From Shinella fusca (GTDB lineage: Bacteria; Pseudomonadota; Alphaproteobacteria; Rhizobiales; Rhizobiaceae), in the NCBI RefSeq assembly GCF_014203155.1, contig NZ_JACHIK010000010.1:1-64000 (forward strand): a DNA stretch of 64,000 nucleotides. Direction: 5' to 3'. The notes beneath the pieces were generated by a model. The model was given only the letters and a program-made list of their open reading frames with translations. It searched no databases and had not been told where the DNA came from. Positions 26,096 through 32,832 of this stretch are shown here, piece after piece (positions within the stretch are counted from its first letter, which is position 1; every line of letters starts with the position of its first letter). A program made the translations under genes and the position numbers.

Positions 26096-26851
26096 CTAAG
26101 GTGTGGGCCTGGTGCCGCTGCGGCTTTCGAGGCGGTATCGTTGTCCCGGATAGATGATCCGGGTGGTGGAGACGATATTGCGATCCGACCAGGTCAGGCG
26201 CCGGATCATCAGGCAGGGCTCGGTTTTCAGGATCATCAGGAGCTTGCATTCCCAAGGCTGTGGGATCGTTGCCTCGACGACATGCTCGGAGCCTCTCAGC
26301 GGGGCGATGGCCGACAGGTACGCATTCGGCGTCGTGGCCGAAAAGTCCTGGCTGAGATAGTCGGGCGCAACGCCGGGATGCACGTAGCGGTCCTCTATCT
26401 GCACCGGCACCCCTTCCTCGCTGTGGACGATGAGGGAGTGGAAAACGGGAGCGCCGATTTCCAGCCCCAGGGCATCCGCGACATCCGGGGGCGCCGAGGC
26501 TTCCGCCAGCGTGACCACCCTCGCTTCGTGGGTGTGGCCCCGCTCCGCGATCTCCTCCGCGATGTTGCGGACCTCGAACAGGGTCGAGACACCCTTGCGC
26601 TCGGCCACGAAGGAGCCGATGCCCTGGATTCGAACGAGTTCGCCTTCGTTTGCAAGTTCGCGCAGCGCGCGATTGGCCGTCATCTTGCTGACGCCGAGCT
26701 CGGCCACCAACTCGTTCTCCGAGGGAACGCGATGCTTCGGCGGCCATTCCCCGCTGTGGATCCTGTCTAGAATGATCTGCTTGACGCCGACATAGAGGGG
26801 GGTCGTATCGTTCGCCGCCAGTTCGGTCCGCATTTCATTGATACGTTTCAT
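26096..26851 (-). CDS. GntR/HutC-family transcriptional regulator
   Basis: 251 residues: winged HTH at about 15-85 (VPSENELVAELGVSKMTANRALRELANEG) and a UTRA ligand domain to the end. It closely follows the histidine-utilisation repressor HutC. ATG at 26851 is preferred (GGGGA upstream); another ATG lies ten codons earlier. It faces the amino-acid importer and HAL-like operon and probably represses it. HutC responds to urocanate; here the inducer may be the product of the variant lyase. Confidence 0.92.
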   Translation of the reverse strand: MKRINEMRTELAANDTTPLYVGVKQIILDRIHSGEWPPKHRVPSENELVAELGVSKMTANRALRELANEGELVRIQGIGSFVAERKGVSTLFEVRNIAEEIAERGHTHEARVVTLAEASAPPDVADALGLEIGAPVFHSLIVHSEEGVPVQIEDRYVHPGVAPDYLSQDFSATTPNAYLSAIAPLRGSEHVVEATIPQPWECKLLMILKTEPCLMIRRLTWSDRNIVSTTRIIYPGQRYRLESRSGTRPTP

Positions 26852-26901
26852 CGTCGAATCCCCGGCATCGCGCCCGACCATCAAAAAACCGAATATCTAT
26901 C

Positions 26902-26935
26902 TTGCATAACATAAGTTTTATCCTATGGTACCATA
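26902..26935 (+). promoter_or_regulatory. Promoter overlapped by a HutC-type operator
   Basis: TTGCAT (26902-26907) and TATGGT (26924-26929) with a 16-bp spacer form a plausible sigma-70 promoter towards the importer. The perfect palindrome TATGGTACCATA (26924-26935) covers the -10 box, a layout expected for repression by the divergent GntR-type regulator. Confidence 0.6.
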
Positions 26936-27023
26936 TACAACCTCCCCAGAGCATTTGCGATGGCGGCAAGCCGGCGAAGATCGGCAGGCAACGGTAGTCA
27001 ACGAACTTCAGAGGGATTTTCAA

Positions 27024-27866
27024 ATGAAACTGCAGAAACTTATTCTTGCGGGCGCGGCTGCTTTGGCCGTGCTCTCTGCCCCGGCCTTCGCCAAGGACTG
27101 GAAGACGGCGACGATCACGCTCGAAGGCGCCTATGCGCCCTGGAACCTCACCAATGCCGACGGCACGCTCGGCGGTTTCGAGCCGGAGCTTGCCAAGGTG
27201 CTGTGCGAGCGCGCCAAGATCGAATGCACGCTGGTCGCTTCCGACTGGGACGGCATGATCCCGGCGCTGAATGCCGGCAAGTTCGACGTGATCATGGACG
27301 CGCTGTCGATCACCGAGGAGCGCAAGCAGATCATCGATTTCACCATTCCCTATGCCGCCACCCCGGCAGCCTTCGCGACGGCGGCCGACAGCCCGCTGGC
27401 CAACGCGGCCGGAACCGGCGCGACCGTCAAGATGACGCCCGGCGAGACCGGCGTGAAGGAAATCGACGCGCTGAAGGAGGCCTTCGCCGGCAAGACGATC
27501 GGCATCCAGGCCGCGACCGTCTATGCGAAATTCATCTACGACAATTTCGGCGCGAGCTCCGAGATCCGTGAATACAAGACGGGCGCCGAACGCGACCTGG
27601 ACCTCCAGAACGGCCGTATCGACCTCGGCTTCGACGACGCCGTCTATTTCGGCAATGCCTTTGCTGCCGCAAACGGCGCGCTCGCCTTTACCGGCCCGGA
27701 AATCGTCGGCCCGATCTGGGGCGAGGGCGAAGGTCTCGGCATTCGCAAGGCGGATACGGACCTGCGTGACAAGTTCAACGAGGCCATCAAGTCGGCGCTT
27801 GCCGACGGAACCGTGAAGGACCTGTCGATGAAGTGGTTCAAGGTCGACGTCAGCCCGGCGGAGTAA
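27024..27866 (+). CDS. Polar amino-acid-type binding protein
   Basis: 280 residues with a signal peptide (about 1-23, ending AFA). It belongs to the family 3 binding proteins for Lys/Arg/His-like ligands (LEGAYAPWNLTNADGTLGGF, SDWDGMIPALNAGKFDVIMD, ALSITEERKQIIDFT). An insert of about 25 residues after AATPAAF is unusual. It starts the operon feeding the HAL-like lyase and FAD oxidase, so the ligand is probably a histidine derivative. The start has GAGGGA 10 nt upstream. Confidence 0.92.
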   Translation: MKLQKLILAGAAALAVLSAPAFAKDWKTATITLEGAYAPWNLTNADGTLGGFEPELAKVLCERAKIECTLVASDWDGMIPALNAGKFDVIMDALSITEERKQIIDFTIPYAATPAAFATAADSPLANAAGTGATVKMTPGETGVKEIDALKEAFAGKTIGIQAATVYAKFIYDNFGASSEIREYKTGAERDLDLQNGRIDLGFDDAVYFGNAFAAANGALAFTGPEIVGPIWGEGEGLGIRKADTDLRDKFNEAIKSALADGTVKDLSMKWFKVDVSPAE

Positions 27867-27894
27867 GCCGCGCGATACGTCTTCGCGATCGAGG

Positions 27895-27916
27895 CCTCCG
27901 GCAACGCTGCCGGGGG
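27895..27916 (+). promoter_or_regulatory. Intercistronic hairpin after the binding-protein gene
   Basis: Arms CCTCCGGCA and TGCCGGGGG pair over 9 bp (one G-T) around loop ACGC, 28 bp after the stop. It probably separates high binding-protein expression from lower permease expression. Confidence 0.5.
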
Positions 27917-27961
27917 TCCGCGTCGCATTTGTCTTGATGCCGCAATCGACGGAAAACGGAC

Positions 27962-28687
27962 ATGGCAACCTTGGAACTGCTGGGCTTCGGCCAGAACGGG
28001 TGGGGCGCGCTGCTTCTGGTCGCCACGCTGATGACGCTCGCGGTGACGGCGACGGCGCTTTTGATCGGGGCCGTGCTCGGCACCCTGGTTGCGACCGCCA
28101 AACTCTCGGGCAACGTGCTTTTGGTCGGCCTCGGCAACGTCTACACGACCGTGTTTCGCGGCGTGCCGGAACTGCTGATCATCTATCTCATCTATTTCGG
28201 CGGCTCGTCGGCGGTCACCGCCGTCGGCCAGTGGCTCGGCTATGAAGGCTTCCTCGGCCTGCCGTCCTTTGCGGCCGGCGCGCTTGCGGTCGGCATCATT
28301 TCCGGCTCCTACCAGGCCGAAGTCTATCGCGGAGCGTATCTTGCCATCGCCAAGGGCGAGCTCGAGGCGGCCTCGGCCATCGGCATGAACCGCATGCTGC
28401 GCCTGCGCCGTGTCGTCATGCCCCAGGTGCTGCGCTACGCCATTCCCGGCCTCGGCAATGTCTGGCAGCTCACGCTGAAGGATTCGGCGCTGATCTCCGT
28501 CACCGGCCTTGCCGAGCTCATGCGCACCAGCCAGGTGGCGGCGGGCTCGACCCGGCAATATTTCCTCTTCTACATCGTCGGCGGTGTTCTCTATCTGCTG
28601 CTCACCAGTTTTTCGGACCGGGTCTTCAACCGCGCCGAGCGGCGCGCGAACCGCAGCATGCCGGCCGCAGCCATGGGGCAGGCCTGA
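27962..28687 (+). CDS. Amino-acid ABC permease (HisQ-like)
   Basis: 241 residues with about five membrane helices. The contact loop is [23 protein letters not shown], and the family motif is [15 protein letters not shown]. Its stop overlaps the next permease start by one base. It pairs with that permease to form the channel. Confidence 0.92.
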
Positions 28688-29394
28688 TGGATATCGCCTT
28701 CCTTTCCTCCGCGATGGTCACGCTCCTCAAGGCCGTGCCCATGACGCTTCTCCTGTTCTCGCTCTCGGTGTTCTTCGGCGGCCTTCTGGCGCTGGTGATC
28801 GTCACGATGCGGGTTTCCGGCAACCGGATCCTGTCCGGTTTCGCCAAGGGCTACATCTTCGTCTTCCGCGGCTCGCCGCTCTTGATCCAGATGTTCCTCG
28901 TCTTCTACGGGCTCGGCCAGTTCGGCGTCATCCGCTATTCGTTCCTGTGGCCGTTCCTGCGCGAGCCCGTCGTCTGCGCCGTCCTGTCGCTGGCGCTCTG
29001 CACGGCCGGCTATTCGGCGGAAATCTTCCGGAGCGGCATCCGTGCCGTCTCGCCGAAGGAGATCGAGGCGGCCCGTGCGATCGGCATGTCGGGCTTCCTG
29101 CTGGTCCGCCGCATCATCGCGCCCATCGCCTTCCGCCATGCGCTTCCGGCCTATTCGACGGAAATCGTGCTGATGATGAAGTCGACCGCGCTCGCCAGCC
29201 TCGTCACCGTCTGGGAAGTGACCGGCGTCGCCCAGCGGCTGATCTCGCAGACCTACCGGACGATGGAGGTCTTCCTCTGCGCGGCCCTTATCTATCTCGT
29301 GCTGAACTTCCTGATCCTGCAGGGCATGGCGCTGCTCGAACATTCGCTCTCCAAACATCGCCGCGCGGCCCCGCCGTCGGCCGTCAAAGCCTGA
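28687..29394 (+). CDS. Amino-acid ABC permease (HisM-like)
   Basis: 235 residues with about five membrane helices, [16 protein letters not shown] near helix 2 and the contact loop [22 protein letters not shown]. The start overlaps the preceding stop (TGATG). The ATPase gene begins 11 bp after its stop with GAGGGAG. Confidence 0.92.
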
Positions 29395-29405
29395 GGGAGA
29401 TCCCG

Positions 29406-30182
29406 ATGCCCGGCGTGACCCGCCTTTCCGTCCGCAATATCCGCAAGAGTTTCGGCAGTCACGAAGTGCTGAAGGGTATTTCGCTCGACGCCGAAGACGG
29501 CGACGTGATCTCGCTGCTCGGCGCTTCCGGCTCCGGCAAATCGACCTTCCTGCGCTGCATCAACCTCCTGGAGACGGCGACGGACGGCGAGATCTTCGTC
29601 GACGGCGAGCAGATTCGCATGGTGAGGAAGAACGGCCAGAGCCGGCCGGAGAGCCAGAAGCAGGTGGATCATATCCGCTCCGAGCTCGGCATGGTGTTCC
29701 AGAGCTTCAATCTCTGGTCCCACATGACGATCCTGCAGAACGTCATCGAAGGCCCTGTCCATGTGCTGAAGCGCCCGAAGGCCGAATGCATCGCCGAGGC
29801 GGAGGCGCTGCTCGATAAGGTCGGCATCGCCGACAAGCGCCATGCCTATCCCGCCCATCTGTCGGGCGGCCAGCAGCAGCGCGCGGCCATCGCCCGCGCG
29901 CTCGCCATGAAGCCCAAGGTCATGCTGTTCGATGAGCCGACCTCGGCGCTGGACCCGGAACTCGTCGGCGAGGTGCTGCGCGTCATGCGCGCGCTGGCCG
30001 AAGAGGGCATGACGATGCTCGTCGTCACGCACGAGATGAGTTTTGCGCGCAACGTCTCCAACCGCGTCGTCTTCATGCGCCAGGGCCTTGTCGACAGCAG
30101 CGGCACGCCGGACGACATGTTCGGCAGCGGCGCGTCGCCGGCTTTCCGCCAGTTCATCGGCCATTTCGGCGGCGAGCAATGA
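29406..30182 (+). CDS. Amino-acid ABC ATPase (HisP-like)
   Basis: 258 residues: Walker [10 protein letters not shown], signature LSGGQQQR, Walker [15 protein letters not shown], His switch [10 protein letters not shown] short insert after the Q-loop region ([12 protein letters not shown]) matches HisP/ArtP types. The stop overlaps the lyase start, tying import to catabolism. Confidence 0.94.
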
Positions 30183-31666
30183 GCGTCGTTCTCGACGGCG
30201 GACTGTCCTGGCGGGAGGTCGCGCGGATCGGGGCGGGGGAAACGCTCGTCCTCTCCGAGCGAGCCGTCGCCCGCGTCGCCCATGCGCGCAAGATCGTCGA
30301 TGCCATCGTGGCGGCCGGCATTCGCGCCTATGGCGTCAATACGGGCGTCGGCGCCCTTTCCGATACGGTCGTCGACGTGGCCTCGCAGAGCCGGCTGTCG
30401 CGCAATATCGTGCTCAGCCATGCCTGCGGCGTCGGCCCGCTCCTGCCGCCGCGTGCGGTGCGGTCGATCATCGCCGCGCAGATCGCCAATTTCAGCCACG
30501 GCCATTCGGGCGTGCGCCCGGCGGTCGTCAATCATCTCGCAGCCTTCCTTGCGCAGGACTGCATTCCCGAGGTGCCGTCCAAGGGGTCGGCGGGATATCT
30601 CACCCACAATGCGCATACCGCCCTCGTCCTGATCGGCGAGGGGCATGCCGTCGTGCGCGGCGAGCGGATGACCGGGCGCGAGGCGCTCGCCGCCATCGGT
30701 CTCGCGCCGCTGGTGCTGGAGGCCAAGGAAGGCTTGAGCCTTGTCAACGGCACGGCCTGCGCGACGGGGCTTTTCGCGCTCGCGCTCTCGCGTGCCGAGC
30801 ATCTGCTGCAATGGGCCGACGCGGTCGCCGCGCTCACGCTCGAGGCGGCGGGATGCCAGATGGCGGCTTTCGACGAGGCCGTTCTGGCGCTTCGCCCGTC
30901 CGCGGGGATTGCCCGGGTCGGCGCGACGCTGCGGGCGCGGCTTGCCGGCAGCGGCCTGATCGCCGCAGCGCTCGGCAGGCGCACGCAGGATGCATTGAGC
31001 CTGCGCGCCGTCCCCCATGCGCACGGCGCGGCCTGGGATGTGTTCGAGCAGGCCGGCGCGGTCGTCAATCGCGAGCTTGCTTCGGTCACCGACAATCCGG
31101 CCGTTTCCGGCACGCCGGAACATCCGCTCGTCTCCTCGCAGGCCCATGCCGTCGCGCCGGCACTGGGGCAGGCGGCCGATGGCCTGGCGATAGCGATTGC
31201 CCAGATCGCGGCGATGAGCGAGCGGCGCATGGACCGTCTGGTCAATCCGCTGGTCAGCGGCCTGCCGCCCTTCCTTGCCAGCGATGCCGGCAGCCATTCG
31301 GGCTTCATGATCGCGCAATATACCGCAACCGCGCTCAGCGCGGAGAACCGCCGCCTTGCGGCACCCGCCTCGACCGACGGGGGCATCACCTCCGGCCTGC
31401 AGGAAGACTTCCTCGCGCATCCGACGGCGGCGGCCAGCAAGCTGCACGATATCATCGACAATGCCGAACACATCCTCGCCATCGAACTGATGGCGGCGGC
31501 ACAGGCGCACGATTTCCTGGCAGGCAAGGGGAAGCGTGCCGCCGGCACGCAGGCCCTTTATTCCATGGTCCGCGAGAACGTCGCGCACTACGAGGACGAC
31601 CGGCCGCTCGGCGCGGATATCGAAACGCTGCGGGCCCTGATCGCCGGAGAAAAACCGGCAACGTAG
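30179..31666 (+). CDS. HAL-family lyase lacking the MIO triad (SAG instead of ASG)
   Basis: 495 residues, full family length. It aligns throughout with histidine ammonia-lyase: YGVNTGVG with Tyr51, [10 protein letters not shown] with Asn190, [11 protein letters not shown] with Arg276, [17 protein letters not shown] and LQED with Glu409. The MIO-forming loop, normally GSVGASGDLAPLAH, reads [14 protein letters not shown], with Ser137-Ala138-Gly139 where Ala-Ser-Gly cyclises in HAL and Tyr140 for Asp. Without the central Ser, the electrophilic MIO should not form as usual. A MIO-independent homologue, ergothionase, eliminates trimethylamine from ergothioneine, so a betaine-type histidine derivative is a credible substrate. 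It sits in an operon with an importer and a FAD oxidase. Classical HAL activity looks unlikely. Confidence 0.85.
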
Positions 31667-31680
31667 ACGGAGAAGACGTC

Positions 31681-32832
31681 ATGCCTGCGGAATTCGATCT
31701 CGCCGTCATCGGCCTCGGCGCCATGGGAAGCGCCGCGGCTTCATTTGCCGCCGCGTGCGGTGCGCGCGTTCTTGGCATCGAAGCGCATTTTCCCGCTCAT
31801 GCCCTCAGCTCTTCGCATGGCGACAGCCGGCTGATCCGGCTCGGTTATTTCGAGGACCCGTCCTATGTTCCGCTGCTGCGGCGCGCCTACGGGAACTGGC
31901 GGGCGTTGGAGGCGCGGTTGCGGGCGGAGATCCTCACCGTCACCGGCGTGCTCCAGATCGGCCGGCCCGACAGCAAGATCGTCAGCGGCACGAAGGCATC
32001 CTGCGACCTGCACGGCCTGGCACATGAAATCCTCGACAAGGCCGAGATGGCGCGGCGCTACCCGGCCTTCGCGCTGGAGGACGGCGAGATCGGGCTGCTC
32101 GATCCCCAGGGCGGCTACATCCGGCCGGAGGCGGCCATCATGGGCTATCTGAAGCTCGCGGCCGAAGATGGTGCGGAACTGCATTTCGGCGAGCGGGTGA
32201 CGGCGATCGAACCGGACGATAACGGTGTCGACATCCTCACGACGACCGGAAAATACCGGGCGCGGAAAGTGATCGTCGCGACGGGTGCGTGGATCGCCGA
32301 GCTTGTTCCGGAGCTTGCCGCCCAGGCCGTGCCGATCCGGCAGGTCGTCGCCTGGTATCAGCCGGAAGACGGTTTCGTCGCCCGGCCCGACCGGATGCCC
32401 TGCTTCCTGCGTGACGAGGGTGACGGCGGCTCCTATTTCGGTTTTCCGGCAATCGGGTTCGACGGCGTCAAGATCGGCCGCCATGCGCATTTCCGCGAGC
32501 CTGTCGATCCGGCCAAGCCCAATCCGCCGGTCAATAAGGCCGACACGGACCTGCTGGATGCCTTCGCCCGCAAGCGCCTGCCGAAGGCGGCCTCGGCGCG
32601 CCTGCGCGCCACGACCTGCCGCTACACGATGCTGCCGAGCGAGGATTTCCTGATCGACTTCAGCCCCCGGCATCGCAACGTCGTGGTATCGTCTGCCTGC
32701 TCCGGCCACGGGTTCAAGTTCACCAGCGTGGTCGGCGAGATCCTGAGCGATCTCGCGCTTGAGGGCGGTTCGGAACTACCGACCTCGCTTTTCACATTCG
32801 AGCGCCATTTCAGCGGCGGGGCCGCCCGATAG
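31681..32832 (+). CDS. Sarcosine oxidase/SolA-like FAD amine oxidase
   Basis: 383 residues. The N-terminal Rossmann motif is AVIGLGAMGSAAASF, followed by SSSHGDSRLIRLGYFED, the family fingerprint. The Cys in TTCRYTMLPSEDF aligns with the covalent FAD attachment Cys of monomeric sarcosine oxidase, and SGHGFKF binds flavin near the end. Family members oxidise secondary N-methyl amino acids. It starts 14 bp after the lyase, so it may demethylate or oxidise an N-methylated histidine relative. A quaternary betaine itself would not be a normal substrate. Confidence 0.88.
   Translation: MPAEFDLAVIGLGAMGSAAASFAAACGARVLGIEAHFPAHALSSSHGDSRLIRLGYFEDPSYVPLLRRAYGNWRALEARLRAEILTVTGVLQIGRPDSKIVSGTKASCDLHGLAHEILDKAEMARRYPAFALEDGEIGLLDPQGGYIRPEAAIMGYLKLAAEDGAELHFGERVTAIEPDDNGVDILTTTGKYRARKVIVATGAWIAELVPELAAQAVPIRQVVAWYQPEDGFVARPDRMPCFLRDEGDGGSYFGFPAIGFDGVKIGRHAHFREPVDPAKPNPPVNKADTDLLDAFARKRLPKAASARLRATTCRYTMLPSEDFLIDFSPRHRNVVVSSACSGHGFKFTSVVGEILSDLALEGGSELPTSLFTFERHFSGGAAR

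Follow-up and report, generated by a model that had tools for sequence, protein, structure and literature searches.

The 64,000 nucleotides of Shinella fusca DNA analyzed here (the window; contig NZ_JACHIK010000010.1, positions 1 to 64,000) contain at 26096-32832 a compact operon with a divergent repressor gene, encoding an importer, a protein of the histidine ammonia-lyase (HAL) family, and a flavin adenine dinucleotide (FAD) enzyme. The subject of this analysis is the HAL-family protein, referred to as the window lyase, which lacks the residue triad of the 4-methylideneimidazole-5-one (MIO) cofactor and is proposed to be a hercynine trimethylamine-lyase. It is encoded at 30179-31666 on the plus strand by an intact open reading frame (ORF) of 495 amino acids (PF00221, E 1.3e-142), the start of which overlaps the stop of the preceding ATPase gene by four bases (ATGA). 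The importer genes lie upstream on the same strand and encode a periplasmic solute-binding protein of family 3 similar to HisJ and ArgT (27024-27866; PF00497, E 6.7e-35; TIGR01096 204 bits, below the cut-off of 256), with a signal peptide at the ATG at 27024, a HisQ-like permease (27962-28687) and an ArtM/HisM-like permease (28687-29394) of the ATP-binding cassette (ABC) type, both assigned from ORFs and domain or profile matches, and a HisP-like ABC ATPase (29406-30182; HisP model 344 bits, below the cut-off of 466). A HutC-type GntR/UTRA repressor is encoded divergently on the minus strand (26096-26848; TIGR02018 289 bits, cut-off 220; start ATG at 26848 picked by eye). The last gene of the operon (31681-32832, plus strand) encodes an FAD-dependent oxidase resembling monomeric sarcosine oxidase and N-methyltryptophan oxidase, which clears one curated model (NF008425, 420 bits, cut-off 257), misses a second (TIGR01377, 270 against 480 bits) and has 7exs as its best match in the PDB.

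An earlier note, made from the letters of this DNA, had described a HAL-family ORF at this position with Ser137-Ala138-Gly139 followed by Tyr140 and without an Ala-Ser-Gly triad, with genes for a HutC-type regulator, an importer of polar amino acids, and an enzyme resembling sarcosine oxidase beside it; letters and neighbors are confirmed. Its reading of Ser-Ala-Gly (30587-30595) as an altered MIO triad does not hold. Ordinary HALs have GSVGASGDLAPLAH at the MIO site (GSVG-ASG-DLAPLAH), and in pairwise as well as multiple alignments Ser137-Ala138-Gly139 is placed opposite the Ser-Val-Gly that precedes the triad. The triad itself is deleted, by which GSVGASGDL of HAL becomes GSAGYL; three residues of Ala-Ser-Gly-Asp are gone and the remaining position is Tyr. 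The tyrosine that the note had placed in the position of Asp is present, and the alignments leave its counterpart ambiguous between the Asp and the Ala of HAL. The site of the missing triad, Gly136-Ser-Ala-Gly-Tyr140-Leu-Thr-His143, lies at 30584-30607 (plus strand).

The deletion is a property of the whole lyase family. GS[V/A]GYL is found in 74 of 74 family loci (the window, 25 further loci, and 48 from named genomes), which include the near copies G003 and G020 and are not independent, and Leu at the position of Tyr280 of HAL is found in all 74 likewise. The lack of MIO is thus more strongly marked than the earlier note had claimed. The 48 loci are among the best 80 of the named-genome scan; the other 32 are not of this family, and their 30 readable motifs consist of 27 ASG, 2 CSG, and 1 SSG. 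A point change of the triad is ruled out because the alignments show a deletion, and a sequencing fault is ruled out by the recurrence of GS[V/A]GYL and of Leu at position 280 in every family locus. The window lyase cannot build MIO.

Apart from the triad, most of the active site of HAL is retained. HutH of Pseudomonas putida (PDB 1b8f and mutants) has a similar fold and about 37% identity to the window lyase in the structural alignment. The predicted fold of the window lyase (mean predicted local distance difference test score, pLDDT, of 94.0, except for residues 401-410 with 65) is closest to the HAL mutant 1eb4, with a template-modeling (TM) score of 0.94. Ergothionase from Treponema denticola (6s7j; TM 0.91) comes eleventh by fold. 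In sequence comparison with the PDB, 6s7j ranks below HALs and aminomutases, and the kinship of the window lyase to HALs is the closer one. Six of seven tested active-site residues of HAL are kept and common to HutH and the window lyase, namely Tyr53, His83, Asn195, Gln277, Arg283, and Glu414 (HAL numbering). Together with a conserved Met they are present in all 38 aligned family rows, apart from Asn195 with 37 of 38. In HAL, Tyr and Glu are crucial to catalysis, while Asn, Gln, and Arg position the substrate, as stated in an excerpt of PMC11432326. The exception is Tyr280, which is replaced by Leu273 in the window lyase (30995-30997, plus strand); this position is Leu in 38 of 38 family rows, Tyr in 24 of 24 MIO-type rows, and Leu again in the four other MIO-less rows (ergothionase, a protein encoded on contig 1 of the same S. 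fusca genome, one Salinicola and one Aureimonas protein). The position of Phe329 is occupied by Ala or Pro in the 38 family rows, and Tyr140 and His143 are unvarying in all of them. The ratio of nonsynonymous to synonymous substitution rates (dN/dS) is 0.08-0.13 in ten pairs from five members of the genus. The gene is under purifying selection, and these values rule out a pseudogene; together with the conserved active site they make a dead enzyme unlikely.

Two further MIO-less HAL relatives were observed close to members of this family. In Aureimonas endophytica, one is encoded at L099:18689-20224 (minus strand) with the motif GSVGYLIATSH, a deletion of the same length and Leu at position 280. 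It adjoins genes for CoA-transferase-like and 3-hydroxyacyl-CoA-dehydrogenase-like proteins and an OsmF-type betaine importer, and may cleave a different aromatic betaine, the acrylate product of which would be activated with CoA. In Salinicola corii, the other (L097:13963-15495; GSLGAADLAQLAQ) is a neighbor of an OsmF-type betaine importer, and 2.5 kb separate it from the family gene.

At a threshold of at least 59% identity, the gene is present in 28 of 201 genomes (S. fusca and 200 relatives), with the next matches listed at 42% or less. Family loci come from Rhizobiales, Azospirillaceae, Thalassospiraceae, Sphingomonadaceae, Roseobacteraceae, Burkholderiales, Pseudomonas, Halomonas, and Salinicola. 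In a tree built by a quick method with the MIO columns removed, the 38 family rows lie together on one side of a branch with a Shimodaira-Hasegawa-like approximate likelihood ratio test (SH-aLRT) value of 100, the 24 MIO-type rows form another (96), and ergothionase and the ergothionase-like protein of the S. fusca genome form a third group with long branches. The root was placed on ergothionase by choice, and long-branch warnings apply to ergothionase, L003, L097_B, L099_B, L160, and L112. A clustering of the homologues with ergothionases, as raised by the earlier note, was not found in the tree or the PDB ranking; neither are they nested among ordinary HALs that carry this triad, but form a separate group in which all members are triad-less. 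MIO-less HAL relatives as such are already known from ergothionase, and the lyase family is a further variant. The differing deletions and the tree, which depends on its root and is itself no proof, suggest that MIO was lost separately in the two.

In databases, the family is mostly treated as HutH. The window lyase scores 462 bits on the HutH equivalog TIGR01225 (cut-off 539.15) and six other members score 439-533, all seven below the cut-off, and only L095 of these clears the broader NF006871 (549 against 524). Where public plasmid records name their matches, they name them hutH or histidine ammonia-lyase, Sinorhizobium meliloti included, among the 40 of 491 matches listed; a gammaproteobacterial plasmid of Erwinia sp. 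E602 (NZ_CP046581.1; H15) carries a 49% match annotated as hutH. The second HutH of S. meliloti, annotated as histidine ammonia-lyase, is a member of the family (L091, H14, 60% identity) and is encoded together with HutC, HutF, and an importer of the HutX type. Both histidine and betaines are substrates of the HutXWV-type transporter of S. meliloti. The open-licence literature searched yielded no paper dealing with the breakdown of hercynine or with a HutH paralogue that lacks MIO, and such papers may exist elsewhere.

The gene neighborhoods connect the family to histidine utilization. At least one of HutU, HutI, HutF, HutG, and HutH is encoded within 6 kb in 23 of 74 loci, and within 10 kb of the lyase gene HutU is found in 14, HutH in 10, and HutC in 60 of them. 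Loci L081 and L082 have the order HutF, lyase, HutI, HutH, HutG, HutU, HutD. In L099, 42 bases separate the lyase gene from the preceding HutF and 63 bases from the following HutI; HutG, HutU, and HutD come next. The order in L095 is HutU, importer, lyase, HutD, HutI, HutF, HutG, and in L097 (Salinicola) it is HutU, BCCT, lyase, HutI, with the BCCT gene directly ahead of the lyase gene. Seven of the 14 neighboring hydratases were scored and reached 950-1013 bits with the HutU model and 667-715 bits with the thiourocanate and S-methyl hydratase models, below the cut-offs of both (930 and 880) in every case; by their profile scores, these seven are HutU. Several HutH paralogues occur in HutC regulons according to an excerpt of PMC5343134.

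One of four importer types is encoded within 6 kb in 58 of the 74 loci. Assigned by similarity to classified examples, these are family 3 (38 loci), HutX/ProX-type OpuAC (15), OsmF-type OpuAC (3), and BCCT (2). Three of the four types are betaine transporter families, and a betaine-type importer accompanies the lyase in 20 of the 58 loci. Within the genus, ten of 12 carriers were examined, five with a family-3 importer and five with the HutX type. The enzyme is thus constant across loci while the importer changes. The oxidase gene is found near 14 of the 74 family genes, every time alongside a family-3 importer.

The repressor beside the window lyase scores as HutC, the inducer of which is urocanate, and is one of three matches to TIGR02018 over cut-off in the genome. 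The third is encoded on contig 4 (17425-18072; L176, L183), in the vicinity of genes for a CoA-transferase-like protein and an importer of polar amino acids. Between the repressor and importer genes of the window lies a 12-bp palindrome, TATGGTACCATA (26924-26935), which occurs in perfect form in nine of 33 intergenic regions compared among related loci, in each case from related alphaproteobacteria. An extended operator pattern gave one match in the genome against two for the reversed control pattern, and the palindrome is regarded as a weak candidate for the operator.

From these data, it is quite probable that the window lyase is a trimethylamine-lyase acting on hercynine (N-alpha-trimethyl-L-histidine, histidine betaine) and yielding urocanate. 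Because the family is without MIO, it would expel only groups that leave by themselves, as ergothionase does with trimethylamine. The imidazole ring is likely to be part of the substrate because of the HAL-type ring-binding residues, the HutC control, and the hut neighbors, and urocanate is the likely product because HutU rather than thiourocanate hydratase is encoded nearby. A compound with an imidazole ring that loses trimethylamine to become urocanate would accordingly be hercynine. More generally, breakdown of a betaine-histidine with a quaternary amine as leaving group can be inferred from the kept HAL residues, the hut operons, the betaine importers in part of the loci, and the exchange of Tyr280 for Leu in common with ergothionase.

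In the proposed reaction, the machinery of Tyr51 and Glu409, kept from HAL, would remove the β-proton of hercynine, and trimethylamine, already a good leaving group, would depart without MIO, leaving urocanate. Leu273 and the small residue at the Phe329 position may make room for the trimethylammonium group, and the invariant Tyr140 may touch this group where MIO would otherwise be. The ABC transporter of the operon would import the substrate under the control of the HutC-type repressor, and urocanate would enter the hut pathway, the genes of which lie on contig 13. The flavin oxidase probably strips the methyl groups from mono- or dimethyl-histidine, leaving histidine.

The substrate that best fits the data is hercynine or one of its partly methylated relatives. 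The oxidase, whose gene directly follows that of the lyase in the window and is close to the lyase gene in 14 of the 74 loci, would be able to remove N-methyl groups, and could be taken to indicate N-alpha-methyl- or N-alpha,N-alpha-dimethyl-histidine as the substrate of the lyase itself. As a matter of general chemistry, however, a secondary or tertiary amine leaves poorly without MIO. An aromatic betaine other than hercynine is opposed by the hut neighbors, which indicate an imidazole ring, and by His83 and Glu414, which are kept in 38 of 38 family rows, whereas a tyrosine-lyase-like Salinicola protein has Gln at position 414. A substrate of either kind in place of hercynine is therefore held to be improbable.

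Ergothionase, which releases trimethylamine from ergothioneine and forms a thiourocanate-type acid, is among the known enzymes closest to the window lyase. It belongs to the same superfamily, has the HAL fold and Leu at the Tyr280 position, and its leaving group is identical to the one proposed here; it works without MIO according to an excerpt of PMC13405746. Ergothionase activity has been reported for Agrobacterium radiobacter and an ergothioneine sulfonate pathway in this organism is cited, as far as excerpts of PMC13405746 and PMC7653990 go. Ergothionase differs from the window lyase in its one-residue deletion as opposed to three residues, in an identity of 30% in the structural alignment, in its position in the tree, and in its pathway genes. 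The S. fusca genome encodes three PF00221 proteins: an ordinary HutH on contig 13 (682 bits, cut-off 539), the window lyase, and an ergothionase-like protein on contig 1 that has ergothionase as its best match in the PDB. Within about 7 kb of the latter gene are encoded a thiourocanate hydratase (1048 bits, cut-off 930), a thiohydantoin desulfurase (600, cut-off 440), and ErtE (601, cut-off 520), as well as a dihydropyrimidinase-like amidohydrolase. This ergothioneine locus (L134:3230-10433; contig 1, about 391.2-398.4 kb) is followed by genes that, judged by eye, resemble those of carnitine breakdown. It follows a similar logic of lyase, hydratase, and ring opening, but lies on another contig, whereas the lyase family is accompanied by true HutU where scored.

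The two lyases also vary independently. Among 21 genomes of the genus, the family gene is present in 12 and the ergothionase-like gene in 17, the former alone in two and the latter alone in seven. In 34 other carrier genomes (27 from the 201-genome set and seven from the named loci), a hydratase in the HutU range, defined as 666-701 bits on the thiourocanate model alone, is present throughout, with one hydratase split in two pieces; a thiourocanate hydratase over cut-off is found in 13 and none in 21. Among 101 genomes drawn evenly from the order, a hydratase of either kind occurs in 51, and one above the thiourocanate cut-off in three. Ergothioneine is disfavored as substrate because the thiourocanate hydratase locus of S. 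fusca lies elsewhere, 21 of the 34 carriers have no such hydratase, and the scored neighbors are HutU. Of the substrates offered in the earlier note, a betaine-histidine such as hercynine or a methylated relative thus stands by inference while ergothioneine does not, and an ergothionase acting on ergothioneine or its sulfonate or S-methyl form is considered quite unlikely.

Little probability is likewise given to an enzyme that still deaminates histidine without MIO, or to a non-catalytic HutH paralogue with a binding or sensing function, as HutC control, hut operons, and a histidine-type importer in most loci would allow, because all 74 loci lack both the triad and Tyr280, an ordinary HutH-like gene is kept in 17 of 18 carriers, and active-site conservation and low dN/dS oppose a dead enzyme. 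The exception, which would fit such readings, is the draft genome of Salinicola. Its three PF00221 matches include no HutH above the cut-off and consist of the family lyase, the other MIO-less protein, and a tyrosine-lyase-like protein (363 bits, cut-off 539).

Several observations weigh against hercynine as the substrate. The search for hut genes within about 10 kb of the window lyase gave none. The importer of the window, as in 38 of the 58 loci with an assigned importer, belongs to family 3, the commonest type and not betaine-specific, and in 16 of the 74 loci no importer of these four types lies within 6 kb. An excerpt of PMC5343134 lists HutX-type transporters under importers of histidine. 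Six Mesorhizobium-type loci have neither one of the four importer types nor a hut gene within 6 kb; in these loci (L064-L069, from Mesorhizobium and a Rhizobiales isolate), the lyase gene stands alone, and regulator, importer, and hut gene were not found in the stretch examined. The ordinary HutH-like proteins (above 600 bits) in 17 of 18 carrier genomes searched for PF00221 fit a second substrate and leave it unnamed. Finally, the model of the window lyase is a monomer, and its segment around Glu409, residues 401-410, is of low quality (mean pLDDT 65).

More likely than not, hercynine lyase activity extends to a widespread proteobacterial family that is mostly labeled histidine ammonia-lyase, has its own route of MIO loss, and plugs hercynine use into the hut pathway, with hercynine as the natural substrate of HutX-type transporters. 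Fungi and mycobacteria produce hercynine as an intermediate of ergothioneine synthesis. If the assignment is true, a catabolic route for hercynine and a bacterial source of trimethylamine would be at hand, and a hercynine substrate would explain why the 'histidine' transporter of the HutX type in rhizobia falls within a betaine family. Proteins named histidine ammonia-lyase, including the second HutH of the legume symbiont S. meliloti, would run a different reaction. The family would also represent a second way of dropping a self-made cofactor once the leaving group had made MIO needless, and hence a clean case for the role of MIO.

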